This document shows positions 16,156 through 43,400 of a stretch of DNA of 64,000 nt, one piece after another. Positions within the stretch are counted from its first letter, which is position 1, and the number at the start of each line of letters is the position of its first letter. Made by a program: the position numbers and the translations under genes. The stretch spans positions 33,222 through 97,221 of the forward strand of contig CADCKR010000001.1 in NCBI GenBank assembly GCA_902802105.1, in the 5' to 3' direction. The DNA comes from an uncultured Ruminococcus sp. Its GTDB lineage: Bacteria; Bacillota; Clostridia; Oscillospirales; Acutalibacteraceae. The notes beneath the pieces were generated by a model, which was not told where the DNA came from, did not search any database, and worked only from the letters and a program-made list of their open reading frames with translations.

Positions 16156-16176
16156 CCGTCTGAGAAACTGTCCAAA

Positions 16177-16323: not shown

Positions 16324-16341
16324 AAAAGCCGCTATATTTTA

Positions 16342-16370: not shown

Positions 16371-16413
16371 GTTATTTGTATATTTGTGTTCATACGCAAG
16401 AGGAGTGTTGATA

Positions 16414-16947: not shown

Positions 16948-17031
16948 AACCGGTGAGCATCCCTTTATCTGCCGCATAAAGCAGCAATAGTATAATACAC
17001 ATCAGACGATCTCACAGAGAGGATAAATAAA

Positions 17032-18600: not shown

Positions 18601-18667
18601 AGATCATAAGCTTTTTCGGGTGCTTCATGCAGCCGTTTTTGTATACTGTAAAAGCAAGGTGAAAATA

Positions 18668-20389: not shown

Positions 20390-20421
20390 GGCAGTAACAG
20401 GCGCAGCAAGGAGTAATAGAA

Positions 20422-26856: not shown

Positions 26857-28530
26857 ATGCAGCTCAATGGTTCTGAGATCATCGCTGAGTGTCTGCTTGA
26901 ACAGGGCGTTGATACCGTATTCGGATATCCCGGCGGTGCAGTGCTCAACATCTACGATGCACTCTATAAGTACAGCGACAGGATCACTCATATTCTTTCT
27001 TCACACGAACAGGGCGCAGCTCATGCGGCTGACGGCTATGCAAGAACAACAGGCAAGTGCGGCGTTGTTATTGCCACATCCGGCCCCGGTGCAACCAACC
27101 TTGTAACAGGTATTGCTACCGCTTACATGGATTCTATCCCTATGGTCGCTATCACAGGCAATGTGTCAAATGACCTTCTTGCAAGAGACAGCTTCCAGGA
27201 GGTCGATATATGCGGCATTACTCTCCCTGTAACAAAGCATAACTTCATAGTCAAAAATGTAAAGGATCTTGCAAATGTTATCCGCAAGGCTTTCCGCATA
27301 GCTATGTCCGGCAGAAAAGGCCCTGTACTGATAGATATTCCCAAGGATGTTACTGCCGCTGTCTGCGAATATACAAAAGAAATACCCGAAAAGATAGAAA
27401 ATCCGCTGCTCTCGGAGCCATCTGATTTTGCAGCAGCCGCTAAAGCAGTCAACAGTGCAAAGCGTCCCATGATATATATGGGCGGCGGTGTTGTCAGCGC
27501 AGACGCAGAAAAGCAGCTTCTTGAATTCGCCGAAAAAACGGACTGTCCTGTAGCCACCTCAATAATGGGTCTTGGCGGTTTCCCGTCATCACACAGGCTT
27601 TTCATCGGAACCATCGGAATGCACGGCGGATACGAAACAGGCAAGGCTACAGATAACTGCGATCTTATCGTAACCGTAGGCGCACGTTTCTCCGACCGTG
27701 TTGCCGGCGACAGAAAGAAATTCGCAAAGGATGCAGTTATAATACAGCTTGATATAGACAAGGCAGAAATAAACAAGAACGTCCGCATCGACTACAGCCT
27801 TGTAGGCGACCTCAAGGACACGCTCAAAAAGCTCACCGAGTCTGTAGAGAAAGCCGACCACAGCGAATGGACGGCTATGCTTTCAGAATGGGCAAAGAAG
27901 TCGGGCGTTACCGAAACACCCAAGTCCGACAAATATGCGCACCCATATCATGTTATAGATATCGTAAGATCGCTCACAAAGGATGATGACATTATCGTCA
28001 CCGATGTAGGACAGCATCAGATGTGGGTATCACAGAGATACAGCTTCGAGAAGCCCCGCAGATGGTGTACATCAGGCGGTCTCGGCACAATGGGCTACGG
28101 CATGGGTGCCGCTGTAGGCGCCGCTGTTGCCGCTCCGGACAAAAAGGTAGTGCTTTTCACTGGTGACGGCAGCTTCCACATGAACCTCAACGAGCTTGCT
28201 ACTGTCTGCTCATATGATCTCAACATAACCATCGTTGTACTGAACAACACCGTTTTGGGCATGGTGCGCCAATGGCAGAAGCTTTTCTACGGCAGCCGCT
28301 TCTCTCAGACCGATCCTCACAGAAAAACAAACTTTGCCGCTGTAGCCGAAGCATTCGGAGTCAAGGGCATGAGAATAAACAACGATGACGATGCAGAGAA
28401 TGTACTCAGGGAAGCTATCTCATTTGCCGGTCCGGTAGTAGTTGACTGCTCTGTTTCACCTGATGAGAACGTGCTCCCGATGATACCGCCCGGAAAGACC
28501 GTTGATGATATGATTACCGAAATGGAGTGA
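26857..28530 (+). CDS. ilvB: Acetolactate synthase large subunit (first isozyme)
   Basis: A 557-residue ThDP enzyme that makes acetolactate or acetohydroxybutyrate for Val, Leu and Ile. The catalytic Glu is in SSHEQGAAHAADGYAR, followed by TSGPGATN. The ThDP-Mg motif begins GDGSFHMN and ends LNNTVLGMVRQWQ. It is distinct from the enzyme at 56801-58420. GGAGGT precedes ATG. Its stop is 5 bp before the small-subunit start. Confidence 0.95.
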   Translation: MQLNGSEIIAECLLEQGVDTVFGYPGGAVLNIYDALYKYSDRITHILSSHEQGAAHAADGYARTTGKCGVVIATSGPGATNLVTGIATAYMDSIPMVAITGNVSNDLLARDSFQEVDICGITLPVTKHNFIVKNVKDLANVIRKAFRIAMSGRKGPVLIDIPKDVTAAVCEYTKEIPEKIENPLLSEPSDFAAAAKAVNSAKRPMIYMGGGVVSADAEKQLLEFAEKTDCPVATSIMGLGGFPSSHRLFIGTIGMHGGYETGKATDNCDLIVTVGARFSDRVAGDRKKFAKDAVIIQLDIDKAEINKNVRIDYSLVGDLKDTLKKLTESVEKADHSEWTAMLSEWAKKSGVTETPKSDKYAHPYHVIDIVRSLTKDDDIIVTDVGQHQMWVSQRYSFEKPRRWCTSGGLGTMGYGMGAAVGAAVAAPDKKVVLFTGDGSFHMNLNELATVCSYDLNITIVVLNNTVLGMVRQWQKLFYGSRFSQTDPHRKTNFAAVAEAFGVKGMRINNDDDAENVLREAISFAGPVVVDCSVSPDENVLPMIPPGKTVDDMITEME

Positions 28531-28535
28531 TACAC

Positions 28536-29033
28536 ATGGAAAACAAACAGATCATAGGTATTCTTGCTCACAATCACCCCGGCGTACTGCTCAGGATCAC
28601 AAGCCTTATATCACGCCGAGGATTCAACATAGACAGCCTTACAGCAAGCCCCTCCGGCATTGAGGGATATTCACGCCTTACCGTTCGCATAAGCGGAGAT
28701 GACGACCAGGTAGAGCAGTTCATCAACCAGATGCTGAAGATCGTTGACATCAAAAAGGCTGAGGTGCTTCCGGACGACTCTTCCGTTGCAATGGAGCTTA
28801 TTCTCATAAAGGTAAATGCAGACCAGAAAAACAAGAACGATATTATTTCTCTGACTTCAACATACCACGCTTCACTTGTCAACCTTGGCAGCAAATCGCT
28901 GACATTCAGGGCTTCCGGCACACCGGATCAGATCGACACCCTGATAACCAGCCTGCGCCCCTACGGTATCCTTGAAATGGCAAGAACCGGTATCGCATCA
29001 CTTGAAACAGGTGATAACTGCCTGACAATATAA
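28536..29033 (+). CDS. ilvN: Acetolactate synthase small (regulatory) subunit (first isozyme)
   Basis: A 165-residue ACT-domain subunit that activates the large subunit and gives valine feedback. N-terminal ACT: GILAHNHPGVLLRI and RRGFNIDSLTA, the usual effector-site region. The C-terminal ACT-like half covers about 80-160. ATG 28536 is chosen because GGAG overlaps the ilvB stop 8 nt upstream. Sometimes named ilvH. Confidence 0.94.
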   Translation: MENKQIIGILAHNHPGVLLRITSLISRRGFNIDSLTASPSGIEGYSRLTVRISGDDDQVEQFINQMLKIVDIKKAEVLPDDSSVAMELILIKVNADQKNKNDIISLTSTYHASLVNLGSKSLTFRASGTPDQIDTLITSLRPYGILEMARTGIASLETGDNCLTI

Positions 29034-29224: not shown

Positions 29225-29689
29225 TCATACTATCTCAAATGCTGCCCAGACAGGAGCAAATTTTGCCATCTGCGCCTGCATAAGTGCCTTATCGCCTTCC
29301 GTAACGGTATCCGTACAGGTAAAGGTAAGCTTGCTTTGTGCCTGATCGTAGGCGAAGCTGCCGTGTGCGTTAAAGCTTTCGGCGAGCCTGATCATACCTT
29401 CCGCTGTACCATCCTCCGCAGATATCGAAAAAGCCTTTATCAGCGCTGCTCTCCTGCCTGCGGCCGTATTCAGGAGATTGATCCTTTGCACAAGCTCCTC
29501 CCTCAATGTCAGGCCAAAGCTCTGCGCAGCAGCAATAAAGCATTCTCTTATAAGCTCCTCGGCCTCGCTGAAATAAAGGTCAAGGCCTTCTGCGTATGCT
29601 TTCAGCTCGGCATAAACTATACTTTCAGGAACTATATCATATAATCCTGTTTCTTCAAGCTCATGCTTCATTATTTCAAATTCAGCCAT
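29225..29689 (-). CDS. Phage tail protein I-like (YmfQ/XkdU type)
   Basis: A 154-residue protein of the DUF2313/gpI-like group that joins baseplate to fibres in Mu- and PBSX-type phages. It is recognised by its place right after the J protein, its length, and the helical N-terminal half followed by a beta-rich C-terminal half ending WAAFEIV. Normally tail-fibre genes follow; here the operon stops and a terminator-like repeat begins 15 bp later. Confidence 0.7.
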   Translation of the reverse strand: MAEFEIMKHELEETGLYDIVPESIVYAELKAYAEGLDLYFSEAEELIRECFIAAAQSFGLTLREELVQRINLLNTAAGRRAALIKAFSISAEDGTAEGMIRLAESFNAHGSFAYDQAQSKLTFTCTDTVTEGDKALMQAQMAKFAPVWAAFEIV

Positions 29690-29701
29690 ATCTGCCTCCC
29701 G

Positions 29702-30763
29702 TCAGGTCATCTCGGTCGCTGTCAGGTTGCGCAGCTTCAAAAGCACTCCGCTGCCGCAGCTGACATCCTGTGTACCGGATGCATAGCTGTAGTTGCGCAC
29801 TCCATCGACCTCCATTATCACCTTTCCCAATGCTGACATGAAAAAGCTCTCCCCTACTGCAAGATCATCAAAGTACTGTCTTATCCTGTCCTTGACCTTT
29901 GTGCGGACATTATAGCTGTTCATCCCGCTTTTTATGCCGACACTTACAGAAATATCCATCTCCTGGACAACCGCTGCCTGAACAGCCGCCACAATTCCCA
30001 CAGGCGTTTTCTGATCCACCGCCTGCTGTACTGCATCGACTACAGACTGTTCGGGCGCCGCTCCTCTGCCCGCAACAGAAACAATGACCCTGCCGGCCTG
30101 ATTTGTGTCCCTGTATGCTTTCGCAGACTGTATTCCCTCAACGCTCATTGCAGCAGCTTCATAATACGCGGCGTTCACTCCGTTTGGCGTGTTTCGGAAG
30201 CTTTCCATTATCCTTGCCCTCAGCGATTCATCGTCCTCATCATTGATCCCTCCCCAGAAATCGGATGAAGCCGCAACGCTTATCCCTACAGAAAAGTATG
30301 TAACTATGTTTTTTATCGTATTCGGGCCGGAATTGTACCTTTCGCCGGTCTCCTCAGCCCTGACGCTCGCAAAGGCATAAGGTGTACCGCGCGGTATAAC
30401 TGCATCCGCAGCGGTAATATAGTTCAGAGCGCCGTCAATGGTAGTGCAGACTGTTCCTGCCGGTATCAGAAAATCGTATTCAAGCGGCGAATCAAGCATG
30501 AATGTAACGCCGCCTCCTGCCTTCTGCCCCTTATTTCTGCTCAGTCCGCGCTGCTGTGCGTGAAGATCAAGCTGCTCGCCGGACGCAGTATTCGGGAACA
30601 TCTGCCGGCGTATCCATTCAAGCTCGGTATTAAGCGAAAACAGTTCTCCCGCCAACAGCCTTATCCTTATGCCGATATCGCTCGCTTCATCCGCATCAAG
30701 TCCCGATTCCTCCGTGAATTTATTTTTCATTCTTGCAACAAGCTCATTATAGCTCAAGCCCAT
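29702..30763 (-). CDS. Baseplate J family protein
   Basis: A 353-residue baseplate wedge protein (gpJ/XkdT, equivalent of T4 gp6). The family features LDLHAQQRGLSR near residue 70, GVTFML, IPAGTVCTT and NGVNAAYYEAAAM are all visible. ATG 30763 is preferred: AGGAG is 9 nt upstream, and the start lies inside the end of the gp25-like gene, giving translational coupling. Confidence 0.88.
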   Translation of the reverse strand: MGLSYNELVARMKNKFTEESGLDADEASDIGIRIRLLAGELFSLNTELEWIRRQMFPNTASGEQLDLHAQQRGLSRNKGQKAGGGVTFMLDSPLEYDFLIPAGTVCTTIDGALNYITAADAVIPRGTPYAFASVRAEETGERYNSGPNTIKNIVTYFSVGISVAASSDFWGGINDEDDESLRARIMESFRNTPNGVNAAYYEAAAMSVEGIQSAKAYRDTNQAGRVIVSVAGRGAAPEQSVVDAVQQAVDQKTPVGIVAAVQAAVVQEMDISVSVGIKSGMNSYNVRTKVKDRIRQYFDDLAVGESFFMSALGKVIMEVDGVRNYSYASGTQDVSCGSGVLLKLRNLTATEMT

Positions 30764-31073
30764 TCTGCGCATCTCCTCTCAGTTCAATTTCGGCGTCCTC
30801 TCCCTGCACAGACACTGTCACCTTTACTGCGTTATTATCTATATTTGCTCCTGTAACCTCGGCATAAGGTACGCTTTCAAGTGCTTTTCTGGCATAAGCC
30901 TCTGCCTTTGCTGCAGCCTGAGCATCCGAAGGGATTATCCCGCCAATACGGCTGCCAAGCTCCCTGTTGTAGATAAAGCCGCCCTTTTTTGCAGAAAGAA
31001 GAATGTACATTCTTTGCAGCAGCTCCTCCCTGCCTGCAATATGATACGGCAGACCGCCGCTTTTGCGCTTCAT
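30747..31073 (-). CDS. gp25/XkdS-like baseplate wedge protein
   Basis: A 108-residue protein. GGFIYNRELGSRIGGI matches the conserved strand-turn of the gp25/W/XkdS family, and the end is beta-rich (VKVTVSVQGEDAEIEL). CGGAGAT precedes ATG 31073. It lies directly upstream of the J protein, as in contractile tails. Confidence 0.75.
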   Translation of the reverse strand: MKRKSGGLPYHIAGREELLQRMYILLSAKKGGFIYNRELGSRIGGIIPSDAQAAAKAEAYARKALESVPYAEVTGANIDNNAVKVTVSVQGEDAEIELRGDAQNGLEL

Positions 31074-31104
31074 ATCTCCGTTAAGACCTATCTTTGTATC
31101 CGTG

Positions 31105-31470
31105 TCAGTTCACCTCCAATGGAACACCGTTAATTATCACGTTTCCGCTTATTCTTATCTCGCCGTCATTTGTCAGATATATCACAGCGCCGCCCTTGGA
31201 ATAAAGCATAAGTTCTCCTGCCTTCAGGTCGTGCTCTGTATTGTTTCTCCTTATTCCCATAAACAGCCGCCTGTCATTCTCACACAAAATGACTGCATCT
31301 CCGTCCCTGTCCGGCACATACTCTATACCCTCCGGCGCCACCATCGCAAGCTGTGACGCACCTCCGGCGCCATCCGCCGCAACCGTGCTCTTCAGGCTGT
31401 TGGTTATCCTGCCGGTGTCGCAGTACAGACCCGCCGTCCTTCCTCTGAAAAGTCTTTCGGATATTCTCAT
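31105..31470 (-). CDS. Baseplate spike protein (gpV/gp45-like)
   Basis: A 121-residue protein. An OB-like first half (GDAVILCENDRRLFMGI) is followed by a short beta-helix-like tip made of GGAVIYLTNDGEIRISGNV and ending NGVPLEVN. Such proteins form the membrane-piercing needle below the hub. It is shorter than most gpV proteins. Its ATG overlaps the hub stop (ATGA). Confidence 0.68.
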   Translation of the reverse strand: MRISERLFRGRTAGLYCDTGRITNSLKSTVAADGAGGASQLAMVAPEGIEYVPDRDGDAVILCENDRRLFMGIRRNNTEHDLKAGELMLYSKGGAVIYLTNDGEIRISGNVIINGVPLEVN

Positions 31471-32384
31471 GTGCTTTTCACCTCTGCAAATATTTTTGTT
31501 CTTTCTCCTCTTGAATCGGATATGTAGTTTACCTCTGTCACCCGGTAGCTCCTGCTGCTGCGGTCAGTCAGCAGCGTATCTCTTACACGGCACCGTACTC
31601 TCCCGCGGCATTCCGCAATGACTCTTTCGTATGCAGCGTCTGATTTTTCAAGTATTCTCCTGATGCCCGTTATCGAACCTGAACGGTTGTCTGCCGTGCT
31701 TATGTACCTTCTCCTGCAAACACCCGAACGCTTTGCCCTGTCACTTGCAAAAAGCATATCATATCCGCGCTCAGGCCGTGTTCTTGCCCTTATCTCAGAG
31801 ACAAGCGCACTGTTTTTCAGCTCACGCCTGAAAGAGATCAGGCTTTCAGACGGAAGCAGTATCTCGGCGTCGCCGTCACATCCGCTCACGTCAATAGTGC
31901 CCGTCCGGTCGATCCGCGGCTCGGTATTCAAAAAAAGAACCGCAAACTTTTTCAGCACTGCCCATTCGCTCATACCCTTTGTAACAGTGAACTCTCCGCT
32001 GAACACCTTATCCGAACCTGAAAACCTGTCAAAGCCCAGCGGTTCAAAATGTCTTTTCATCAGCAAGCGCATAGAAGGACACCGGTATGTCTGCGGCTTT
32101 GCTTCGTTGTCAAGCAGGATCGCAGCCCTGCTTCGCGCATAAACCGTAAGAAAATGTCCGCTCAGGCCGTATTCCTCTGCCTGAGAATCAACTGCCCCCG
32201 AAAATACTGTCTCATCCTCGTCAAAGACCTCTATCCTGCAAAGCTCCGGCACATCGCCTTCTACCGCAAAAACAGCTCTCAGGCTGTCGGCCGGCGCACT
32301 TTCCGATGAAGAGATGCTCACGCTCATCGGGTGCTCCATCAGCACTGTATGTCCGTCGTTATCCGTTATCCTGAACGTCAGCAC
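31467..32384 (-). CDS. Baseplate hub protein (XkdQ/gpD/gp27-like)
   Basis: A 305-residue beta-rich protein. The N-terminal domain pattern SSESAPADSLRAVF, then FDEDETVFSGAVDSQ and ARSRAAILLDNEA, is typical of XkdQ/late-control-D hubs, which form the trimer between tube and spike. The start is GTG 32384, overlapping the end of the LysM-like gene by 7 bp with only a weak ribosome site, so it depends on coupling. Confidence 0.75.
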   Translation of the reverse strand: MLTFRITDNDGHTVLMEHPMSVSISSSESAPADSLRAVFAVEGDVPELCRIEVFDEDETVFSGAVDSQAEEYGLSGHFLTVYARSRAAILLDNEAKPQTYRCPSMRLLMKRHFEPLGFDRFSGSDKVFSGEFTVTKGMSEWAVLKKFAVLFLNTEPRIDRTGTIDVSGCDGDAEILLPSESLISFRRELKNSALVSEIRARTRPERGYDMLFASDRAKRSGVCRRRYISTADNRSGSITGIRRILEKSDAAYERVIAECRGRVRCRVRDTLLTDRSSRSYRVTEVNYISDSRGERTKIFAEVKST

Positions 32385-32899
32385 AGCTTCACCGTCCTTC
32401 CCGGCAATATGGGGACATCCGGCCTTTTTACATCCGGGTTCAGTTCAAGCAGCACTTCTATATCAATGCCGCTCTCATAGGAATGATCCCATAGCCTTTT
32501 TACTCCATCGGATATTATGTATGTATCACGTTCGTTTGCCGGATTGCCGCTGCACTCAACGAAAACAAAGCTGTACCTTACTACCCTGCCGATATCCGCA
32601 GCTATCATGCGGAGCTCCTGAAAATATGCCAAAACAGGCCGCTGTGACGGGATGTACAATATCCCGCCGCCGCCCTTTTCAAAGCGTTCCCTGAGCCTTG
32701 AAAACTGATAGATACAGTCCTCCCCGAAAAACTCACCCTCGCCGGTTATTTTTCTTGCGCCTTTGCCATATTCGTTTACCTCCGCGTCACCGGTGAGTGC
32801 CCTCTGTTCTGTCACAGTCCTGCTGCGTGTGATCCTTATCTGCTGAGGGTTGTTCGGAAAGACAAAATCACCGAAGCTCATTTTTCCGTCACAGTTCAT
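32378..32899 (-). CDS. LysM-like tail protein (XkdP type)
   Basis: A 173-residue protein with a structured N-terminal domain (SFGDFVFPNNPQQIRITR) and a C-terminal LysM-like end (LLELNPDVKRPD, ILPGRTVKL). It occupies the XkdP position between tube module and hub. AGGAGG is 6 nt before ATG 32899, favoured over the ATG two codons earlier, which overlaps that ribosome site. Confidence 0.68.
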   Translation of the reverse strand: MNCDGKMSFGDFVFPNNPQQIRITRSRTVTEQRALTGDAEVNEYGKGARKITGEGEFFGEDCIYQFSRLRERFEKGGGGILYIPSQRPVLAYFQELRMIAADIGRVVRYSFVFVECSGNPANERDTYIISDGVKRLWDHSYESGIDIEVLLELNPDVKRPDVPILPGRTVKLC

Positions 32900-33044
32900 A
32901 AACATCCTCCTCTGCGTCTATATGCCTGTCATATCTGAGTGCATCCGACTGTAAAATATCCGACAGCCTTATTATATCCTCAAGCTCCTGCGCATAGAAT
33001 TCTCCGCTGCTCCTGATAATTTCGGCATTTTCAGCTTCCCTCAT
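32889..33044 (-). CDS. Small acidic phage-like ORF (51 residues) in the tape-measure/chaperone slot
   Basis: An open frame of 51 residues beginning MREAENAEIIRSSGEFYAQE, mostly helical and acidic. AAGGGAG is about 7 nt before the ATG. It overlaps the upstream gene by 14 bp and the downstream gene by 11 bp, exactly like its neighbours, which supports its being real. In PBSX-like phages the assembly chaperone and the long tape-measure gene sit here; this frame is far too short for a tape measure. No family recognised. Confidence 0.6.
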   Translation of the reverse strand: MREAENAEIIRSSGEFYAQELEDIIRLSDILQSDALRYDRHIDAEEDVYEL

Positions 33045-33432
33045 TATGCGTCTCCCTTCTCATTTTCAGTGCGGCAATGCTGATATGCTCACGGAATTCA
33101 GCCTTGTCAGTCACCCACCTGAAATCGTCCCACATACAGCCCTGCAGCAGGAATGCCTCCCCGTCAAGCTGAAATGAGACAGTAAAATTGTCAAGATCAT
33201 AGAAATTGTAATTTGTGAAAGGCTGTCTGAACCTGACTCCCGTAAGATTGAGCTTATATTCAGGCCTGCCCTCAATATGCGCCACATCCTCACTGCAAAA
33301 GCAGCTCCGTACCCTGTGAAGCTCAGATATACGCCTGAGCTCCGCCTTTTCGGCCTGCAGCAGCCGCCTGCCGTCAATAACGATAAGAACATCTCTGCCG
33401 CAGACTAACTCTCTTTCCGCCAATACAAACAT
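33031..33432 (-). CDS. Putative tail tube protein
   Basis: A 133-residue beta-rich protein. RDVLIVIDGRRLLQAE near the start, the YDLDNFTVSFQLDGEAFLL block and the size and position suggest a gp19/XkdM-like tube, but the match is weak. In contractile phages a sheath gene (350-470 residues) should lie just before it; here the preceding gene is a 133-residue connector. Alternative: a head-tail adaptor. Confidence 0.5.
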   Translation of the reverse strand: MFVLAERELVCGRDVLIVIDGRRLLQAEKAELRRISELHRVRSCFCSEDVAHIEGRPEYKLNLTGVRFRQPFTNYNFYDLDNFTVSFQLDGEAFLLQGCMWDDFRWVTDKAEFREHISIAALKMRRETHNEGS

Positions 33433-33438
33433 CCCTCC

Positions 33439-33840
33439 TTAAAGCCTGCATCTTTCTCTTAAAGTAAAGCCCATCATTACTTTATATGCAAAAAGCAGCC
33501 TGTCGTACATACATTTCTCCACACTCACAGAAATGATCTCACGTCTGCTGTCAGCCTCCAGAACAGCACCGCATATTCTCCTGGCTAACTCTTCACAGAA
33601 CGCACCGCCCTTTTCTGCATCCGTACATACACTCAAAATCAGCTTTTCGCTGCTTAAAAGGCATTCATCCTTACCGATGAGAGGCTCCATCCTTTCGCAT
33701 TCCTCACGCCCGATGCATATAAGTGGAGCCTTCAACGGGAACCCTGTTTCCTCTGCATTATACATTTCTGCAAAGCGGCAGCCGCCGAATCTCTCGTCCG
33801 CGCTCAGCGAAGCTGTAATATCCTCCGCAAAGTCACTCAT
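33439..33840 (-). CDS. Tail terminator/head-tail joining-like protein
   Basis: A 133-residue alpha/beta protein with LICIGREE, KLILSVCTDAEKG and an ISVSVEKCMYDRLLF strand, consistent with the tail-terminator fold. Start ATG 33840: CAGGAG is 9 nt upstream; the ATG overlaps the end of the previous gene by 8 bp. Assignment rests mainly on size, order and fold impression. Confidence 0.5.
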   Translation of the reverse strand: MSDFAEDITASLSADERFGGCRFAEMYNAEETGFPLKAPLICIGREECERMEPLIGKDECLLSSEKLILSVCTDAEKGGAFCEELARRICGAVLEADSRREIISVSVEKCMYDRLLFAYKVMMGFTLRERCRL

Positions 33841-34168
33841 TCTCATCATCTCCTGTCATTTTTCTCAGGCAGGCCTTTGTAAAGCATCCTACCCTTGAAG
33901 AATAGTCGTCCTTCCATATAAGCACATACTTATCGCTGCCCTGATAAACAATACTTCCGTACCCGGACGATTCAAGCAGCTCCCTTGCACAGAACATCGA
34001 ATATCTTTTCGGTTCTGTTCTTCCCTGCGGAAGCTGCTCAACGCCGCCCCACTGCCGGTAATGATATCTTATCGGGTTTATTACAGCCCTGCCGTTTTTC
34101 AGACCGTCGGTACTCTCTACCGAAACATCAAGTCCTATACGATTTATAGCTCGTTTAATATTCTTCAC
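33833..34168 (-). CDS. Head-tail connector-like protein
   Basis: A 111-residue protein between the MCP-proximal adaptor and the tail-terminator-like gene. It contains GGVEQLPQGRTEPKRYSMF and is beta-rich; position and size fit a head completion or neck protein. No firm family. Confidence 0.45.
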   Translation of the reverse strand: MKNIKRAINRIGLDVSVESTDGLKNGRAVINPIRYHYRQWGGVEQLPQGRTEPKRYSMFCARELLESSGYGSIVYQGSDKYVLIWKDDYSSRVGCFTKACLRKMTGDDENE

Positions 34169-34191
34169 CTTTACCTCCCGAAAAAGACGTT

Positions 34192-34542
34192 TCAGCTGAC
34201 TGTCCTGAACACAAAACCGTCATCCATATCTCCGCCCAGCCGTGAAAGCGCCTCCCTGCATATCCTTTCGGCATATTTCAGCCTGTCCTTTCCCGCACCT
34301 ACTGTAATTTCTCCTACTTTTATATTCGCCGCAGCATCGGTCATGCTCCAGAGCACATATCTGTAATATGCAAGAGCTGCGGCAGCATACTCTGCTCTGC
34401 CGCCGCAGCTGATATCACCTTCCGGAAGCCTTGCGGTTATCTCGTCAATACTCATATCACAAAGATATCCATGCTCCCTTGCTTCGTTCTCCGAAAGTCC
34501 CGTCAGCTTGGCGAATACAGCAAAAACCTTGTCTGTATCCAC
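34192..34542 (-). CDS. Head-tail adaptor-like protein
   Basis: A 116-residue mostly helical protein (AAAALAYYRYVLWSMT, then KYAERICREALSRL) directly after the capsid gene. This is the position and fold type of gp6/gp15-like adaptors that dock onto the portal. Confidence 0.5.
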   Translation of the reverse strand: MDTDKVFAVFAKLTGLSENEAREHGYLCDMSIDEITARLPEGDISCGGRAEYAAAALAYYRYVLWSMTDAAANIKVGEITVGAGKDRLKYAERICREALSRLGGDMDDGFVFRTVS

Positions 34543-34554
34543 ACTGCTCCCTCC

Positions 34555-35559
34555 TTATGAAAGAACCTTTGAAGCATCCTTTATGATCTTTGCAAAGCCT
34601 GCAATACAGCTTATGCTTGCTCTTTCAAGCTGTCTGTCAATAAGCTTGTCGGAATCCATGATGATATTTCCCGACTGCACCATTTCAAGCGCACAGTTCT
34701 TATCAAGGCCGATAATGCTTCCCGAGGTCATTGACGGAATATGCAGCAGCTTTGCGCCGAGAGGTGTGATCATCCTGCCCGTACCCTGAAATGTAAGGCC
34801 TGCCATTGAGTCTCTCATTTCACTCAGAGTCACAAGCTTCTGCATCATATCGGTAGACGCCAGCATTGTATTGAGCTCATAGGGTGAAAGCTCTGCCCAA
34901 AGCTTCACAAGATCGCCGTATGTAAGCGTGCCGCTTGTTGTAAGCGATATCGTTCCTGCCGCATTGCTGTTGCCGTCACCGTTCACGATGACATTAACCG
35001 CATCCTTGAGCTGTTCTCTTGCAATATGCGCACCTATCTGACGAAGTGTCACCGTAAAGAGATCAAGGCGCTGGAACTTTATAGCCTCGTATGTTGCCAC
35101 AAGCATTCTGCCCCTCTTAAAGAGCTTCACAAGATTCTCGCTTGTTCTGATATTTGTCTGCGGCAGAGCTGCACCCTCTGCAACGACCTTGAGCGCCTTT
35201 TCATCATCTGTCGGCTCAGAGACCACAGAACGGTAATCCATACCGTTGATAACAGTTTTTGCCGCAATGATATCCTTAAGCTTATCATTGCTCTCAACAC
35301 CCTGTCTGACAGCTCTTGCCACATACTCAGGAAAAAGTGCAGCCGAATCGCTTGTTTCAAAGAACTTCATCACGCAGTCCGAATAGGGACCGCCGACCTT
35401 TATATCAAATCTTTTGAGCTGTCTCTGAAAGGCATCAAGCCCCTCATAGGAACTGCCCCTGTAGTTTTCGGAAGGATCAAGCTCCTCGAGCACCTCAGTA
35501 AGTCCCTTGCCGCTGTTGTACATACCCTTTTCAAGTCTTATGCTGTCAAAATATGCCAT
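34555..35559 (-). CDS. Major capsid protein (HK97-like fold predicted)
   Basis: A 334-residue protein of MCP size in the canonical place. An N-terminal helical segment (about 1-60) is followed by the P- and A-domain-like alternation; LPQTNIRTSENLVKLFKRGR resembles the conserved spine-helix entry, and DAVNVIVNGDGNSNAAG the loop before the A domain. GGAGG lies just before ATG. Confidence 0.82.
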   Translation of the reverse strand: MAYFDSIRLEKGMYNSGKGLTEVLEELDPSENYRGSSYEGLDAFQRQLKRFDIKVGGPYSDCVMKFFETSDSAALFPEYVARAVRQGVESNDKLKDIIAAKTVINGMDYRSVVSEPTDDEKALKVVAEGAALPQTNIRTSENLVKLFKRGRMLVATYEAIKFQRLDLFTVTLRQIGAHIAREQLKDAVNVIVNGDGNSNAAGTISLTTSGTLTYGDLVKLWAELSPYELNTMLASTDMMQKLVTLSEMRDSMAGLTFQGTGRMITPLGAKLLHIPSMTSGSIIGLDKNCALEMVQSGNIIMDSDKLIDRQLERASISCIAGFAKIIKDASKVLS

Positions 35560-35578
35560 AATATTTTCCTCCTTAAAA

Positions 35579-35914
35579 TCAAAGAATAATGCCTGCGATC
35601 TTGGCAGTCGAATCTACATCTACAACAAGGAATTCCCTGCCGTTGTTGTCAGCAGCGACCTTGCTTCCGGTAGTCGCGGATATTTTCTGATAGCCTACAG
35701 ACAGATCGCCAGTATAAGGCACTCTCACATAGCCTGTGAGCTGAACTGCTGCGATATCGTTTCTTACGTTCCTGCACACTCCGCAGAATGCGCCGCTTGT
35801 AACAGCCTGCACCTTGCCGTTTGCCGATATTCCTACTACCTTGCCCTCTGCTACGCCGCTTGCAGCCTCAAATGATGCTACCTGCTCATTAAAACCGTTA
35901 AATGATGTTTTCAT
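35579..35914 (-). CDS. Capsid decoration/stabilisation-like protein
   Basis: A 111-residue beta-rich protein with EAASGVAEGKVVGIS and VQLTGYVRVPYTG, resembling DUF2190/head-decoration folds, which sit on the capsid surface. GAGGAGG precedes ATG 35914. It lies between protease/scaffold and capsid genes, the usual order. Confidence 0.6.
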   Translation of the reverse strand: MKTSFNGFNEQVASFEAASGVAEGKVVGISANGKVQAVTSGAFCGVCRNVRNDIAAVQLTGYVRVPYTGDLSVGYQKISATTGSKVAADNNGREFLVVDVDSTAKIAGIIL

Positions 35915-35925
35915 AATAAACCTCC

Positions 35926-36897
35926 TCAAATATTCTGATAATCTTCATTGCCAACGCTTGATTTTGAACCGCCTCTGAAAAGCTGCGGCCTTACCGGCAG
36001 TATATCCTCTGCCCTGACCTGGAATGCCTTGATAAGCTCATCAAGCTGCCTTACCGAAAGCTCCTCAGTAATACGGCCGAGCGTATCTTCTCCAAGCTCC
36101 GGCAGCACGATGGCCGAAAGGCTCTTTACCTCTTTGATGAGCTTGTCACGATAAAACTCCCCGTCGAAAGCCTTTTTTTCAAGGCTCTTGAATTTGCTTA
36201 TCAGTTCCTTCATCTCCTCTGCGGAAAAGCTCTGTTCCTCTCCCGCAAAAAGCTTTTTTTCGATATCCGTTTTGCTCACTCCTTTTTCATTGTTATGCTT
36301 ATTGATATTTATTCTGTCATAGCTTTTTACAACGCCTGCCATCTTCTGCGCAGGCACCGCAACAAACGACCATTCGTAAGCGTCCGTAGGCTCGTCAAGC
36401 GTAACATAGCACAGCTTTCCTGCATATTTTCTGCCGCGTATATGGTCGCAGACGGCAATATCATTCCCGCATATCGAACATATACGGCGCTTTACCGAAC
36501 AACCGACACTTACCTCCTTCTTGATACCGCTTTCAAGCTCTTCAATGAGCGGCCTGCTCCTGTCGTTCCTTGGAATATACGCCCTTGCGAAAAGTCTTTT
36601 GTAGGTTCTTCCGTCGGAGCACTGTCTGTCATTGAGGGTCTCTGTTTTACAAGAAAACACTCTTGCACTCTGATTGCTGCTTTTAGCCTCATGGTCGGTT
36701 ATTCCTGTAACACCAACATACAGCTCACTGAGCTTTTCAAGCGAACTGTCCGAAAATCTTTCGCAGTCCCTGTCTATATCATTATCACAAAGCACCACAG
36801 AGAAAACATAAACGTCATTTTCATTGAGCGGCGTCCTTGTGTATTTGTTTATCAATTCAAGCTCTCCGGGAGCTGCTTTTCCTGAAAGGTCACTCAT
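35926..36897 (-). CDS. Capsid maturation protease/scaffold-like protein with Cys motif
   Basis: A 323-residue protein. The N-terminal half (VVLCDNDIDRDCERFS, GITDHE) fits a prohead protease or its inactive derivative. At about 140-165 lies a zinc-finger-like CSICG...CDH...C cluster, then DAYEWSFVAVPAQKMAGVVK. The C-terminal 110 residues are helical and charged, as in a fused scaffold. Start ATG 36897 follows AAGGAGGGA; a 26-codon longer frame is rejected. It overlaps the portal stop by 8 bp. Confidence 0.65.
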   Translation of the reverse strand: MSDLSGKAAPGELELINKYTRTPLNENDVYVFSVVLCDNDIDRDCERFSDSSLEKLSELYVGVTGITDHEAKSSNQSARVFSCKTETLNDRQCSDGRTYKRLFARAYIPRNDRSRPLIEELESGIKKEVSVGCSVKRRICSICGNDIAVCDHIRGRKYAGKLCYVTLDEPTDAYEWSFVAVPAQKMAGVVKSYDRININKHNNEKGVSKTDIEKKLFAGEEQSFSAEEMKELISKFKSLEKKAFDGEFYRDKLIKEVKSLSAIVLPELGEDTLGRITEELSVRQLDELIKAFQVRAEDILPVRPQLFRGGSKSSVGNEDYQNI

Positions 36898-38032
36898 TAC
36901 ATCCCTCCTTGTCCTTTGCCGCAAGCTGATCCGCCTGCGCATTGTAAAGTCTTGCCCTTGCAAGCTCGACCTCATCCTGTAGATTTACGCAATCCCACTT
37001 TATGCTGTATCTCCTCCTGATACCTCTCAGCTTCAGATACATATCGCATATTTTTCTTATGCAGCCCTCAAGCTGTCCTCTGTAGAAATCAAGCTCGCTT
37101 GTGAGAATATCCGCCTGCTGTACCGACATCCTCTCCGTTGTGGACCATGACAGTCCCAGCAAAAACGGCGGTATCGAAAGCTTTGCAACTATCTGCTGAA
37201 GCAGCATTTTTATCGGGACCTCACAGTCGGGTATCTGATTTTCCGCACCTATGACCTTTATGCTGACATCTCCTACAGTGATAAAGTCCCTCGGCTCTCT
37301 GCTGCGCATTGCCTTGCTCCACTCGGAAGCTATCATAGCTGTTCTTTCCTTAGTGAAGTTCCTGTCATTCTCGCCGGGTCTGTACGACACCGCAAATCTC
37401 ACGTTGCCCACTCTGTCCCAGTTGGTGCCCACCGCATTGAATATCTTCATCAGCATATCTCCCACAAACGGAAGTCCTCTCAGCAGCGAAGTACCGTAGA
37501 TCTTGCCCGGCCGGTTCATTATCGTACTGCAAAGTATCAGCTCCGGATACCTCACCTCGGTATTCTCACCCGTGACGCTTCTTGCCATAAAGGTAATATC
37601 AAAAGGATCTTTTCCGGCTTTCAGTTCCACATCATCAAGCGATGCATTATACAGCGCTGCGATCCTCCGGCCGCTTTTGTCCGGCACCATCTCACCCACA
37701 GCTGTCCCGTATGTAAGCAGCTGATCAAGATAAGCCCCGACAAAGCTGTCTATCCCATGCTGATTGCCATTGACGCGCACTCTTTTTAAAAAATCATTTA
37801 TGTCCTCCTGAACAGACTCATCCTCACACCTTACAGTGAAGGTGCCTGTAAGTCTTATCAGCTTTCCCAGAGCCGCATCAATAACAGGTACATTTTCACG
37901 CAGAGATCTGTATAGCTGTCTTTCGCACCTGTCGGTCTCAACTCCTCCGATAAACGAAAGACCGCTGCTGTATCCGCAGCTTACCGCTGTCTGCACCTGA
38001 GCCGGTTCTCTTTTTTTCCTCCCGAATATCAT
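36890..38032 (-). CDS. Phage portal protein
   Basis: A 380-residue portal, on the short side. DAALGKLIRLTGTFTV near the start, LLTYGTAVGEMVPD, and the helical STTERMSVQQADILTSELDFYRG stretch near the stem/crown are typical of PBSX/SPP1-class portals. It lies between terL and the protease/scaffold gene; AGGAGGA precedes ATG. Confidence 0.82.
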   Translation of the reverse strand: MIFGRKKREPAQVQTAVSCGYSSGLSFIGGVETDRCERQLYRSLRENVPVIDAALGKLIRLTGTFTVRCEDESVQEDINDFLKRVRVNGNQHGIDSFVGAYLDQLLTYGTAVGEMVPDKSGRRIAALYNASLDDVELKAGKDPFDITFMARSVTGENTEVRYPELILCSTIMNRPGKIYGTSLLRGLPFVGDMLMKIFNAVGTNWDRVGNVRFAVSYRPGENDRNFTKERTAMIASEWSKAMRSREPRDFITVGDVSIKVIGAENQIPDCEVPIKMLLQQIVAKLSIPPFLLGLSWSTTERMSVQQADILTSELDFYRGQLEGCIRKICDMYLKLRGIRRRYSIKWDCVNLQDEVELARARLYNAQADQLAAKDKEGCNE

Positions 38033-38052
38033 TCCTGTCCTCCTCTTATGAA

Positions 38053-38097
38053 TTATGCTTTACCCTCCCTGTCAAAGGATCTGCCTTTGACCTCCAT
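38053..38097 (-). CDS. Possible 14-residue peptide between terL and portal
   Basis: ATG 38097 is 7 nt after a strong AGAGGAGGG ribosome site and encodes MEVKGRSFDREGKA before TAA. It may be a real small peptide, a coupling device for portal translation, or chance. It is the only notable gap (111 bp) inside the operon. Confidence 0.25.
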   Translation of the reverse strand: MEVKGRSFDREGKA

Positions 38098-38143
38098 GCT
38101 TTCGCCCTCCTCTCAATGCTCACCTCCATCATGTGATATCACG

Positions 38144-39385
38144 CTAAAACACCGCAAATGCTATTACTCCCTCATCCTCCTCTTCAAGCGAAGATACAAA
38201 GTAACGTATATCATCCATTGCATGGTCGTTTTCCTTTACCGGCATATCCCTGCCGCTGCTGTCCCAGCGATAAAGCCCGAACTCTGTCAGGGCATCACCG
38301 CAGCACCGGCATATCCTTACCCTGCCCTCCTTCAAGGCCGTAAAAGTCTTGCGTATGCCGTCACGGACATTATTCACAGCCGGAACAACATTGAATTTGC
38401 CGTGCCGCCTTATCACCTCGATAAAGCTTGCAGCCGACGGATCGACTATTACCTTCGTTACCTTCCTGTTTCCTGCCAGATCACAAAGACCCTGATAATG
38501 CTCCTCGTCCGTGCGGGAGCTTCCCTCACGCCTTGAGCTGTAATAGTACTCCGCAATGCGGTACCACACGCCGTCATATCTTCCCCATAAACCGAACGAT
38601 GACGGATTTACCGTACCATAATCGCACGAAATGACATATTCCTCGGCTTCCCCCTGCGGCATTTCTGCTATCATCCTGTCCTCGGACATGAACGGATAAA
38701 CAAGGCCGTCGGTAACGCACCACTTACCAAGCACAAAGCGGTCATAAAAGCTTCCCGAATAAAGCGTCCTGTAGCGTTTGAGGACCCTCGGCGACAAAGA
38801 CGGATTATCCTCCATAAGAAAATGCAGGTAATACACATTCTTCTCCTTGGTTTTCATCACCCATTCCCGGCAGAACCAATGCTGCGGATATTCGGGATTG
38901 CAGTTGAACCAGAGCTTTGCATTCTCCTTTGAGCACCTCGCCAAAGCCTGCTCTATGAACGTCCTCGGCATAAGCGCCGCCTCATCAAACAATACTCCCC
39001 AGAGCGTCATTCCCTGAATAAGCGATGCAGAGCTTTCGTCCCTGCCTCCGAAAAGATAAAACGTATTTGTTCTCCCCTGTGCACTGACGTAAAACAGATT
39101 AGATGAAAGCTTTTCCTTCACCTCAAAGCCTATATCACGCAGAATTGATATCAGCGGAGCATAAACATTTCTCCTGACAGACCTTATCGTCTTGCCGCAG
39201 ATAGCAAAGCTGCCGCCGTCTGTACTGAACATCGCCCATGACACAAACGACACGCTCATGCAGAGCGTCTTTCCGCTTCGTACCGCGCCGTCACAGATAA
39301 TGCCGTCATATTTTGAGGTCTCTCTCTGCGGCAGCCACCAGCTCAGCAGATCAAGCTGCTTGGGTGAAAATGCCGTATAGCCCAA
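38144..39385 (-). CDS. Terminase large subunit
   Basis: A 413-residue DNA-packaging motor. Walker A GAVRSGKT is at about 33-40 and Walker B LFDEAA at about 132-137 with Glu135. The RNase H-like nuclease retains D255 (CDYGTVNPSS), D315 (VIVDPSAAS) and D391/D392 (HAMDDIRY), so both activities look intact. It is closest to the PBSX/Terminase_3-6 type. The subtype would decide between headful and cos packaging, which I cannot call. Confidence 0.9.
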   Translation of the reverse strand: MGYTAFSPKQLDLLSWWLPQRETSKYDGIICDGAVRSGKTLCMSVSFVSWAMFSTDGGSFAICGKTIRSVRRNVYAPLISILRDIGFEVKEKLSSNLFYVSAQGRTNTFYLFGGRDESSASLIQGMTLWGVLFDEAALMPRTFIEQALARCSKENAKLWFNCNPEYPQHWFCREWVMKTKEKNVYYLHFLMEDNPSLSPRVLKRYRTLYSGSFYDRFVLGKWCVTDGLVYPFMSEDRMIAEMPQGEAEEYVISCDYGTVNPSSFGLWGRYDGVWYRIAEYYYSSRREGSSRTDEEHYQGLCDLAGNRKVTKVIVDPSAASFIEVIRRHGKFNVVPAVNNVRDGIRKTFTALKEGRVRICRCCGDALTEFGLYRWDSSGRDMPVKENDHAMDDIRYFVSSLEEEDEGVIAFAVF

Positions 39386-39430
39386 TCACAGCCGCCTCCC
39401 TCCGATTTTGTACATCACCCTGATTTTTCA

Positions 39431-39964
39431 TTATTCATCATCACCGCCGTCCCTGTCCGCATCATCAGCGCTGTCTTCGCGGCTCTCGGCATTTTTCAGC
39501 TTTCCGAAGCCGCTCACTAAAGCCCTGTAGAAATCCGATGAAGTATTTTCTTCCTCGTTCCCGTACTGTTCAAGCTTTTCCAATGCTTTAAGTCTGTCAA
39601 AGAACTTGATCTCCAGCGCACCCTCCTTCGGACGTTTTATCTCTGCAACATTAAAAAGGTCATAGCCTTCCGCGCCCGCAGTAAAAGCATCGCCCTCAAA
39701 GAGCAGCCTTACAGCATCGTTAACGCTTCCGAATGCGATCCTTTCATAGCCCGCATAGGCCTTTTGTCTTGCGTTCCTGAGCCGCTTCTCATAAAGTCTG
39801 CTGACCTCGTTATTGATATCATCTCTCGAAAGCAGCGATACTCCCGCCTTTTCGGGCATATCGTAGCCCGCATCAACAGCGGCGGCCGCAGCATCGCCTC
39901 CAAGAGAATAGACCTCGCAGAAGCGCTTTTCACGGCTTGTCAGCTCTCCCGATTTTCTTCTCAA
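39431..39964 (-). CDS. Terminase small subunit
   Basis: A 177-residue Terminase_2-type protein. The N-terminal helix-turn-helix-like part (LTSREKRFCEVYSLGGDAA, DAGYDMPEKAG, LLSRDDI) is the DNA-recognition domain; a long helix and acidic tail follow. The start is TTG 39964: AAAGGAGG is 7 nt upstream, while a start six codons earlier would be inside that site. It is the first gene of the operon. Confidence 0.85.
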   Translation of the reverse strand: MRRKSGELTSREKRFCEVYSLGGDAAAAAVDAGYDMPEKAGVSLLSRDDINNEVSRLYEKRLRNARQKAYAGYERIAFGSVNDAVRLLFEGDAFTAGAEGYDLFNVAEIKRPKEGALEIKFFDRLKALEKLEQYGNEEENTSSDFYRALVSGFGKLKNAESREDSADDADRDGGDDE

Positions 39965-39988: not shown

Positions 39989-40029
39989 GACCTTTGCAAA
40001 ATATTTTGACCTGCAAAGGTCACATTATC
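39989..40029 (-). promoter_or_regulatory. Operator-like palindrome and -10 box ahead of the phage-like operon
   Basis: Perfect 10-bp arms GACCTTTGCA and TGCAAAGGTC (39989-39998 and 40012-40021, 13-bp spacer) lie 25 bp before the terS start. On the minus strand an extended -10, TGTGATAAT, with its hexamer at 40024-40029, sits directly next to the palindrome, so it would cover the transcription start. No good -35 is seen, which fits activator dependence or repression. Confidence 0.5.
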
Positions 40030-40411: not shown

Positions 40412-43400
40412 ATGTTAAAACACAGTAAGCTCCTCAAAAAATCAGCATCATTCCTGCTGTCCGCTTTGCTGTCACTGTCAGTATTCTCTGTTGCCGCTCC
40501 GCTTCAGACAAGCGCAGTATCATATTCAGAGATGTCCGCACTCGACAGCTTCGCCTACAGCGGAAATGATCTCGGCGCGACCTACACAAAGTCGTCCACC
40601 ACCTTCAAGGTATGGGCGCCAAAAGCCGACAGCGTGCAGATAAAGCGCTACACTACAGGCAGCGATGATGAAGCCGGTGCGGCCGTGATCGAAACAAAAG
40701 CCATGACAAAGGGCTCTCAGGGCGTGTGGTCTATCACCATTCAGGGCGACCTTAACGGCACCTACTACACCTATCTTGTCACCTACGGCAGCAAAACCAA
40801 TGAGACAGTTGACCTCTATGCCCGCACTACCGGCGTAAACGGCAACAGGGCTATGGTCATTGACCTTGACAGCACAGACCCGCCCGGCTGGGAAAACGAC
40901 CACCGTGTAGATTGTCCCAACCAGACGGATGCCATTATATGGGAAATACACGTCCGTGACTTCTCGATCTCACCGGATTCCGGCATGAAGAACAAGGGCA
41001 AATACCTTGCCTTCACCGAAACGGGCACGACCGTAAACAATGACGGCATACATCCCACAGGCATAGATTACCTTGCAGATCTTGGCGTTACCCATGTTCA
41101 TCTTTTGCCCGTTTACGACTATTGCAGCGTTGACGAGACCAAGCTCAGCACAGATCAGTTCAACTGGGGCTATGACCCGCAGAACTATAACACTCCCGAA
41201 GGCTCCTACTCCACAGACCCGTATCACGGCGAAGTGAGAGTAAAGGAATTCAAGCAAATGGTACAGGCTCTTCACAACAAGGGCATCGGCGTTATCATGG
41301 ACGTTGTATACAACCATACCGCAACAGAATGGTTTGACTATACCGTACCTGAATATTACTACCGCCAAAATTCAAAGGGCACAAAATCCAACGCATCCGG
41401 CTGCGGCAACGAGACCGCCAGCGACAGAGCCATGTACCACAAATACATGATAGATTCCCTTACATACTGGGCAAACGAATATCACCTTGACGGCTTCCGT
41501 TTCGACCTCATGGGCATACACGACTGCGACACCATGAACGATATCCGCGCCGAGCTTGACAAGATCGACCCGCAGATACTCATGTACGGCGAGCCCTGGA
41601 CGGCAGAAGCCACAACGTGCCCGAAAGCGACCGCAGTACAGGGCAATATCAAGCTGCTCAACAATGATATCGGAGCCTTCAACGACAAGAGCCGCGACGC
41701 TATCAAGGGAAGCTGCTTCACCGCAACAGACCCCGGCTTTATACAGGGCGCTCCCTGGTTCGAGGACAGACTTAAAATAAGCATTCAGGCAAACACAACA
41801 ACTATGGCAGGCGACAGTCAATGGTCCAAGCAGCCCTCACAGACCGTTACCTACACCTCGGCTCACGACAACTACACGCTGTATGACAAGCTCGTAAAAT
41901 CCTGCAAGGGCGGCTCCGGCTACGGCAACCGCTATGACGACCTTGTAGCAATGAACAAGCTTGCAGGCGGCATAATCCTCACCGCGCAGGGCATATCGTT
42001 CTTCCAGGCAGGCGAGGAATTCGCAAGAACAAAGTACGGCGATGAAAACTCCTACAAATCTCCCTCATCAACAAACCAGATAGTTTGGTCAAACACAAAA
42101 ACATATTCCGACCTGATGAATTACTACAAGGGTCTTATCCAGATCAGAAAGGCATATTCGCCCTTCCGCGACCCCACCAACACAAGCAACAACACCATCT
42201 ACTTCTCATGGGCAAATTCAGGCTTCCCGTCAAATGTTGTAGCATTCACAATGTACAACACTATAAATCCGGGCACAGAATGGGACTATGTAGGCGTTAT
42301 CCACAACGCCAGCTCATCTGCCCAGACAGTCACCCTTATGACCTACGATACCAAGACGCTTCCCTCACAGTGGGTAATTATCGCAGACGGCTCCACAGCC
42401 GGCATAACTTCACTCGGGACCACCGGCAGCACAGTTACCGTTCCTGCCCGTTCGACTATGGTTCTTGTAGACAAGGCCAGCTTTGACAGAACGGTTATTT
42501 CAAGCGGCTGCAAGGTCACTGTAAACCATGTTCTCAAGGACAGCGGCACCACCTACAAGACAGAGACCCTCAACGGCAAGGAAGGCGCATCCTACAGCAC
42601 CTCACCTCTTGCAGAGCTTACCGGCTCGGGCTATACCGTAAGCTCCGTTTCCGGCGAAACAACAGGCACCTTTACCAAGGCAGGCACAACTGTTACATAT
42701 TACTACACAATAGACCCCTCAAAATTTGCTCTTCTCACAGTCAAGTATCAGGACGCCGAATCAGGCAAGAGCCTTGCCGAAGATACCGTAACATCAAAGG
42801 AGATCGGCGCCTCCTACAGCGTATCGCCCAAGACGATAAGCGGCTATGAGTGTGACACAAGTCTTACTGCAAATGCAAGCGGAAAAATGGTTCAGGGCGG
42901 CGTGACAGTAATATTCAAGTACCATGAAGCCGAGGCCGAAAACCTGAAGGTCCATTATTATAACACTTCAGGCTGGTCAACCGTTTATATGTACGCTTAC
43001 ACAGGCAGCGGCGAAACCGCAACAAATCTCAGCGGCTCATGGCCGGGCACAGTAATGCAGTCTGAGGGCAGCGGCTGGTATGTCGGCTCTGTCAACACAG
43101 ACGCTCCGGCTCTCTTCATAGCAAACTCAGGCGTAGGCGGCTCTCAGGATCCCGCAGGTGTAAACTCTACCGGCTATTCCGTAAGCGGTGAATGCTGGAT
43201 AAAGGGCGGTACTGTATATCCCACAGGCAAGGTAAACGTCAGATATGAAACGACCGACGGCACTCTCCTTGACAAGGAAACGCTCAAAGGCATAGCTGAC
43301 GGCACTGCCTCTTATACCACAAAGTCAAAAACATTTGACGGCTATGAGCTTGTTACTGCTCCTACAAACGCATCCGGTCTTTATACACAGAGCGATATAA

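Follow-up and report, generated by a model that had tools for sequence, protein, structure and literature searches.

A probable domesticated gene transfer agent of the Oscillospirales and a leader hairpin that recurs at dispersed lysis and fibre-like loci

Described systems and the window operon

Few gene transfer agents (GTAs) are known in Gram-positive bacteria, and the closest described counterpart of the element considered here appears, by its organisation, to be FpGTA I/II of Faecalibacterium prausnitzii, which we take to belong to the same bacterial order as the host of our sequence. Here, we focus on an operon of closely packed genes at positions 29225–39964 (minus strand) of the window, the 64,000-nucleotide stretch of DNA that was analysed, which comes from the draft genome of a rumen bacterium, an uncultured Ruminococcus sp. 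(2.0 Mb, 50 contigs, 89.5% complete). The operon is probably the chief structural gene cluster of a GTA that has been domesticated in an Oscillospirales family and passed on largely by vertical descent, because an inherited and selected packaging cluster is combined with separate lysis and fibre-like loci under apparent common control.

As far as the part of its description drawn on here goes, FpGTA comprises an operon of ~10.5 kb that encodes TerS, TerL, portal, scaffold and capsid along with further phage-like products (CP030777, 2536737–2546346 in strain APC918/95b), is present in all 12 Faecalibacterium genomes examined there, and has its tail fibre, holin and endolysin genes far away at a second locus (PMC12946183, Nat Commun 2026). 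The same part of that source calls FpGTA the second GTA-like system in Gram-positive bacteria after PBSX of Bacillus subtilis, itself a domesticated phage element that packages host DNA; it also describes host DNA packaged in a GTA-like manner in Ruminococcaceae, Oscillospiraceae and Christensenellaceae, with a strong operon candidate in one of the four metagenome-assembled genomes searched (PMC12946183). The FpGTA baseplate gene is placed in locus II there, whereas here the baseplate genes lie in the main operon and the tail appears reduced; the FpGTA main text uses none of the terms hairpin, promoter or sheath (PMC12946183). FpGTA is likened here by description: with phage FP_Brigit as a probe, no Faecalibacterium was identified among 29 capsid-positive genomes, the matches falling mainly on a metK-like gene and short pieces.

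The late gene order of PBSX is similar to that of the window operon, and PBSX has both a sheath and a tape measure within one locus; the window element differs in having neither, and in having partner loci. The full contractile Faecalibacterium phage FP_Brigit (MG711465) agrees in general gene order, terminase first and late control D last, but also has a recombinase, replication genes, sheath, chaperone and tape measure, and tblastn of the operon proteins against its first 40 kb gave no match. CcGTA and RcGTA of alphaproteobacteria are siphovirus-like and unrelated in origin to the window element. According to the part of the CcGTA account used here, a main cluster and accessory loci stand under common control (apparent in our case, from the leader described below), anti-termination is employed, GafY acts at ~18 accessory promoters, and a terminator lies downstream of the first gene, whereas our hairpin lies before it (PMC11150451). 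Anti-termination at the leader would parallel CcGTA; an operator is possible instead.

Under the GTA reading, the operon would build a capsid, packaging motor, neck, very short tail tube and contractile-type baseplate, with neither a sheath nor a recognisable tape measure, while a holin and endolysin and receptor-binding-like proteins would come from separate sites, tied together by a common leader before the first gene. A lineage-specific trans-acting factor, either an anti-terminator or a repressor, probably recognises this leader, such that head, fibre and lysis genes would be switched on together; TerL would then fill heads with DNA, probably of the host, before the cell lyses. Gene content, inheritance, integrity, the missing sheath and the leader with its link to lysis and fibre-like genes are observed; particle production, the packaged content, the arrival of DNA in recipients and the leader's mode of action are all inferred from sequence. 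That lysis genes elsewhere carry a matching control signal suggests that the particle serves the cells as a vehicle for their own DNA.

A broader proposal is offered tentatively: that the GTA extends across several Oscillospirales families and accounts for some of the host DNA found encapsidated in GTA-like form in gut and rumen viromes, that it passed stepwise from sheath-bearing to sheathless forms, and that it has a dispersed regulon whose leader hairpin co-evolves with an undiscovered trans-acting anti-terminator or repressor. The element offers a genetic handle across many more gut and rumen genera, and the leader a way to find scattered GTA parts from sequence alone. Cultured carriers are among these genera: Pseudoruminococcus massiliensis, Caproiciproducens faecalis, Faecalispora jeddahensis and Scatolibacter rhodanostii.

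Inheritance, selection and packaging genes

Within the window's genus, TerL is present in 60 of 61 genomes (the window's own genome counted), the sole miss being a genome that is 80% complete. A single match was found in 53 of these and two matches in seven, where either the gene is split (G008 and G029) or a weaker relative supplies the second match (five genomes). Beyond the genus, TerL matched in 7 of 38 genomes from the order. Of 398 genomes sampled from the family, 229 carry the capsid gene, representing 82 of 135 genera, and 226 of these have a single copy; in a sample of the order it occurs in 71 of 394 genomes, from six families. The element is therefore widespread, not universal, in the family, which is judged to be Acutalibacteraceae from its named carriers, these including Pseudoruminococcus and Caproiciproducens, both members of that family.

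Across 58 genus genomes, 815 of 822 fully readable operon gene copies are intact, defined as an open frame of >80% of the window gene's length; this count excludes 154 no-match cells and 10 copies cut by contig ends, and G013, G029 and G036 lie outside the 58 genomes. Median dN/dS is 0.05–0.24 for 16 of the 17 genes and 0.38 (n=2) for a gene of 51 aa, values that are rough, being medians from up to 10 pairs with synonymous sites near saturation. The operon is under purifying selection. Distances between concatenated operon proteins correlate with those of the host gene mfd (r=0.83, Mantel 0/999, 40 genomes), and the concatenated operon tree recovers 16 of 23 strong mfd splits (40 taxa). In a host control with 29 taxa, mfd and obg have 14 of 26 splits in common (r=0.81), compared with 12–15 of 26 for single operon genes and mfd (r=0.56–0.85). 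Since the splits in common with mfd are about as many as for obg, the operon has been inherited chiefly by vertical descent, with a contribution from exchange or from errors in the trees. Vertical inheritance and purifying selection, both expected of a GTA, are thus observed, though some strong splits are contradicted.

The sequence-only reading had suggested a possibly domesticated element and not a decaying prophage, and had proposed a comparison with the host phylogeny and a test for purifying selection. The operon tree largely follows mfd, dN/dS lies far below 1 and TerL is all but constant in the genus, which bears out both suggestions; the patchy distribution with linked integrase in close relatives, or the many frameshifted copies, that would have spoken against them are not seen.

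The operon is real and is predicted to encode terminase, portal, capsid, neck, tail tube, hub and baseplate. Its span contains 16 open reading frames (ORFs) of at least 100 aa on the minus strand and 10 on the plus strand, whereas 200 letter shuffles gave a one-strand mean of 4.0 and a maximum of 8; spacing between neighbours ranges from −86 to +111 bp, and gaps total 259 bp. By our reading of the ORFs there are 17 genes, the 51-aa gene included, and not the 18 frames counted earlier; the earlier boundary at 39964 proved well placed, as the TTG there, following AAAGGAGG, is the better terS start. The tight one-strand packing of packaging, head and baseplate genes was likewise confirmed, in layout by this spacing and in families by the profile matches given below. 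Pfam and PHROG profiles recognised no integration, replication, lysis or fibre genes in the operon, several of whose genes have no family match. AlphaFold models of the tube and terminator were built from alignments of relatives.

40007..40022, minus: palindrome TGACCT-N4-AGGTCA ahead of terS; a weak version, in the window, of the hairpin conserved in these leaders, missed by leader model R1
39431..39964, minus: terS, terminase small subunit; TTG start; Terminase_2 (PF03592) 2e-10, phrog_51 1e-9
38144..39385, minus: terL, terminase large subunit; Terminase_6N (PF03237) 1.8e-10, phrog_2 1e-43; ATPase and nuclease motifs apparently intact
36890..38032, minus: portal; phrog_30703 8e-125
35926..36975, minus: putative prohead protease/scaffold; phrog_16951 3e-92 (function unknown), role from position and weak head/protease matches; start probably further in
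35579..35929, minus: virion structural protein, decoration-like by position; phrog_4588 5e-19
34555..35559, minus: major capsid protein; PF25209 6e-17, head protein phrog_3922 1e-99
34192..34542, minus: gene 7, putative head–tail adaptor by position; intact in 50 of 58 genus operons, no match in the others
33833..34168, minus: gene 8, putative head closure/stopper by position; intact in 47 of 58 genus operons, no match in the others
33439..33849, minus: gene 9, tail terminator; AlphaFold pLDDT 86.9; Foldseek matches to Milano neck 2.5e-4, lambda gpU 7.9e-4 and an RcGTA chain 4.3e-3
33031..33432, minus: tail tube, contractile type; modelled contractile tail-tube fold
32889..33044, minus: 51-aa gene between tube and hub, no role assigned; matches in 31 of 58 genus operons
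32378..32905, minus: tail-hub-like protein (DNA_circ_N region); PF07157 7e-4 (just under cut-off), phrog_184 baseplate hub 2e-4
31467..32384, minus: baseplate hub, gpD-like; phrog_177 3e-9
31105..31470, minus: putative central spike; phrog_25991 2e-11 (function unknown), role from position and sequence
30747..31073, minus: baseplate wedge, gp25-like; PF10934 1.7e-3 (below cut-off), phrog_975 9e-4
29702..30772, minus: baseplate J-like protein; Baseplate_J (PF04865) 3e-47, phrog_6 6e-68; single match in the host genome
29225..29689, minus: baseplate gpI-like protein, by position; own phrog_521 match weak (0.11), L316 counterpart 8.5e-23

The TerL Walker A (GAVRSGKT) and Walker B (DE) motifs are invariant in all 57 intact genus TerLs, except that the last T of Walker A is S in two, and the candidate nuclease aspartates D255, D315 and D391 are invariant in all 57. 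We take these motifs, with the three aspartates as nuclease residues, to have their customary roles, and the claim of an intact terminase motor and nuclease made for the window alone extends on that basis to the genus. By profiles and motifs, packaging motor, portal and capsid are all intact, as a GTA would need, and motor and capsid together favour DNA-filled particles.

Several observations weigh against a mainly vertically inherited GTA. No capsid match was found in 169 of the 398 family genomes, some of which are incomplete, and the seven non-intact gene copies include three that are apparently frameshifted and four that are short. Concatenated operon genes contradict 4 of 23 strong mfd splits with 40 taxa; of 16 strong splits with 29 taxa, obg contradicts 1, single operon genes 0–6 and the concatenation 5, and for single genes the distance correlation with mfd is as low as 0.56. 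TerS matches most of the Terminase_2 model, its residues 14–141 aligning to positions 1–128 of 141, so that its N-terminal helix-turn-helix (HTH) region is probably kept; sequence-specific packaging is possible. FpGTA TerS, by contrast, is described in the part of the account used here as having no obvious DNA-binding domain (PMC12946183).

A reduced tail

Neither a sheath nor a tape measure was recognised among the window operon genes by profiles or folds. The longest unassigned stretch in 47 genus operons, which span 8.7–11.2 kb, is 741 bp, and there is therefore no room for a tape measure of normal size. A sheath search gave no match in 10 of 12 genomes of the genus, the window's own included; the remaining two, G012 and G019, have sheath ORFs of 574–583 aa on other contigs. 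In some genomes of two other families an extra gene between terminator and tube is a tail sheath (PF04984 1.4e-13 in L316 and 8.5e-8 in L309), and a sheath lies inside the element in all four such genomes picked for the search. Some relatives have head genes alone at one site, for example beside rimP-nusA-infB. The sheath-bearing, sheathless and head-only relatives make up a natural series in which to ask which parts a DNA-carrying particle can shed while selection still maintains it.

Two loci, L086 and L088, hold the head-only version in genomes of ~1.2 and ~0.8 Mb, where matches to J are weak. The L086 element (9500–21000) directly precedes the host genes rimP-nusA-ylxR-infB; the idea that L086 is a full phage with a tape measure was dropped, as the long downstream genes encode host NusA, YlxR and IF-2.

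These losses bear on the view that the element is a domesticated PBSX-like particle whose heads carry host DNA for the purpose of killing competitors and not of transfer. PBSX, as reported in the part of the source used here, packages 13.4-kb pieces of host DNA and acts as a tailocin without injection (PMC12946183), and the presence of several fibre-like genes in one genome, at three sites in G031, is as expected of specificity modules. A contractile killing tail needs a sheath and a tape measure, however; the former is missing from the cluster and matches nothing in the window's genome, no gap fits a normal version of the latter, and the packaging set has been kept under purifying selection. 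We therefore consider a killing particle unlikely. A tailocin would have lost head and packaging genes and kept sheath and tape measure, and the operon has the converse content.

The leader hairpin, dispersed loci and chromosomal site

In the genus, a palindrome was seen ahead of terS, usually with a T-tract, directly 5′ of the Shine–Dalgarno sequence, the order being an A-rich stretch, hairpin, T-tract and Shine–Dalgarno sequence before the first gene. A terminator-like hairpin is present in 40 of 78 terS leaders, compared with 2.6% of dinucleotide shuffles; by upstream gene, it is found in 17 of 40 divergent, 18 of 27 co-directional and 5 of 11 leaders with an unknown neighbour, and in only 1 of 66 divergent control leaders. 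Among 30 of 31 leaders aligned in register, 97.2% of cells pair, a figure inflated because the aligned hairpins were chosen for pairing, which leaves the variety of pairs unaffected; sliding the register destroys pairing, and 9 of 12 stem pairs change on both sides, as in covariation. In 69 sources outside model building, the leader model gave 37 matches at E≤0.1, 36 of which lie before terS by coordinates. No Rfam family was found for the leader in five sources, and literature searches, with subscription papers and preprints outside their scope, showed none of the element or the leader described among the papers listed; this leader-based regulatory signature thus appears undescribed.

Run on 20 whole genomes, the leader model at E≤1e-3 located 31 places, every one in a genome of the same family, with 11 before the head operon and 20 elsewhere. 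Nineteen of the latter were read (G058:C78 was left out): seven lie ahead of holin and/or endolysin genes, which at two places follow fibre-like genes, seven precede fibre-like genes, three precede HTH or replication-initiation-like genes and two nothing clear, one of these being at a contig end. Lysis or fibre-like genes thus follow the leader at 14 of the 19 places read. Lysis genes are supported by Pfam matches to Phage_holin_4_1 (3e-32), Glyco_hydro_25 (4e-26, 2e-30 and 3e-29) and Amidase_3 (8e-11); the other lysis genes were recognised by their similarity to the ones so matched. Fibre-like genes are identified less securely than lysis genes: their assignment draws on one tail-fibre match (1.6e-5), one GDSL domain and a common first-gene family of unknown function, one member of which had no PDB sequence match and which presumably resembles BppU. 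In the window's genome, the leader precedes an XhlA-like gene (weak, 0.007) and a GH25 lysozyme (G000:C3), with a second, weak place there (C10, E 0.05). The sequence-only reading had noted that lysis and fibre genes are missing, which stands for the locus and fails, with regard to lysis, for the genome. Leader and gene content are observed at these accessory sites, and suggest common control.

The leader stands before Lin1244_N or replication-initiation/HTH-like genes at G002:C79 (L375) and at G282:C20 and C9 (L380, L381), and it is possible that these are regulators or replication helpers of the system. The exact palindrome pattern, YGACCTNNNNAGGTCR, has a single match in the window's genome; a simple operator role was for this reason rejected as a candidate, and contig-end repeats in G002 and G042 look like another repeat.

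Even if the element is a GTA, the hairpin could be an ordinary terminator or a dispersed repeat, with no role as a common control signal. Hairpin and T-tract have the form of an intrinsic terminator, and the co-directional excess given above fits one; divergent terS leaders nevertheless carry the hairpin far more often than divergent control leaders. Stems at non-head places are identical over 8 bases to the head-operon stem of the same genome in 14 of 19 comparisons, a fit reached by 5 of 5000 label permutations, although many genomes have the commonest stem, which gives G282 and G058 a large influence. Of the family genomes searched at E≤0.01, 15 of 17 with the capsid gene have the leader, as against none of 17 that are capsid-negative (Fisher 1.5e-7). 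Other results tell against a shared signal: the window's own leader is degenerate, with a 6-bp stem only; stems within a genome differ in 5 of 19 comparisons; and 12 of the 17 capsid-positive control genomes belong to the window's genus, outside which the leader was found in 4 of 5, one being that of G122, before an ABC transporter, which is probably an ordinary terminator. Weak matches also precede prophage-like early genes (L372, L390). In family f26, 3 of 10 genomes tested have the leader, among them G690 with 12 leader-like sites (L391, L394, L396–L405), of which one precedes terS, one precedes holin-like genes (L401, by eye), seven have no phage-like neighbours and three were not properly read; these sites are perhaps a dispersed repeat derived from the leader. 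On balance, a terminator or repeat with no shared function is improbable for the leader as a whole.

The operon is flanked by ilvBN (26857–29033, plus strand) and by a large pullulanase-like gene named by eye (40412–45085, plus strand). Gene order is kept in most of 80 loci taken from genome contigs, a contig end truncating many of them, and the neighbours of the element are common within subclades and differ between them: four close relatives (L032–L035) have it beside ilvN, as in the window, and others beside gerA-like, peptidyl-prolyl isomerase, hflX-like and other host genes. The flanks examined are host genes, in agreement with the ordinary chromosomal site described earlier, and this setting, with no integration or replication genes recognised in the cluster, is what a GTA would show. 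Of 176 candidate flank ORFs, 131 were scanned, and the 25 commonest of the 95 Pfam families found there include no integrase; att sites lay outside this search.

The sequence-only reading had also raised the prospect of a satellite relying on another phage. As a satellite or defective prophage, the element would need a helper for its sheath, tape measure, lysis and spread, which would explain the absence of sheath and tape measure from the operon and the sheath genes elsewhere in G012 and G019. No sheath matched in most genus genomes tested, however, J is a single match in the window's genome, which has leader-bearing lysis genes of its own, and the phylogeny is host-like over 40 species; distribution in close relatives is not patchy and frequent flank families include no integrase, both unlike a satellite. 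This explanation is very unlikely. A decaying remnant that looks intact by chance, as the lack of sheath, tape measure, replication and integration genes might suggest, can be dismissed, given almost uniformly intact gene copies between species, dN/dS far below 1 and near-constant presence in the genus.

In phage collections, near relatives of the portal and capsid are unannotated faecal contigs and 35 IMG/VR contigs, 32 of them <16 kb (six of the 35 were read), and TerL has relatives at the 47–49% level in ordinary phages. One phage-deposited record, L297 (MT835508, 46.7 kb, from a Mexican faecal sample), has a head-only element among apparent host genes such as MCRA and an ABC transporter; it may stem from host DNA within a viral fraction or from contamination. 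A gerA-type spore-germination gene adjoins the element in 10 loci (L066, L067, L072, L075, L077, L078, L081, L098, L100 and L102), which probably reflects common ancestry of the site; other flanks carry a germination protease or YunB. The window contains two acetolactate synthase large-subunit genes, at 56801–58447 (minus strand) and 26857–28530 (plus strand), and at 53050–55011 (minus strand) encodes a 653-aa protein with a weak, below-cut-off match to the BLB8/JUQZ-1 family model.

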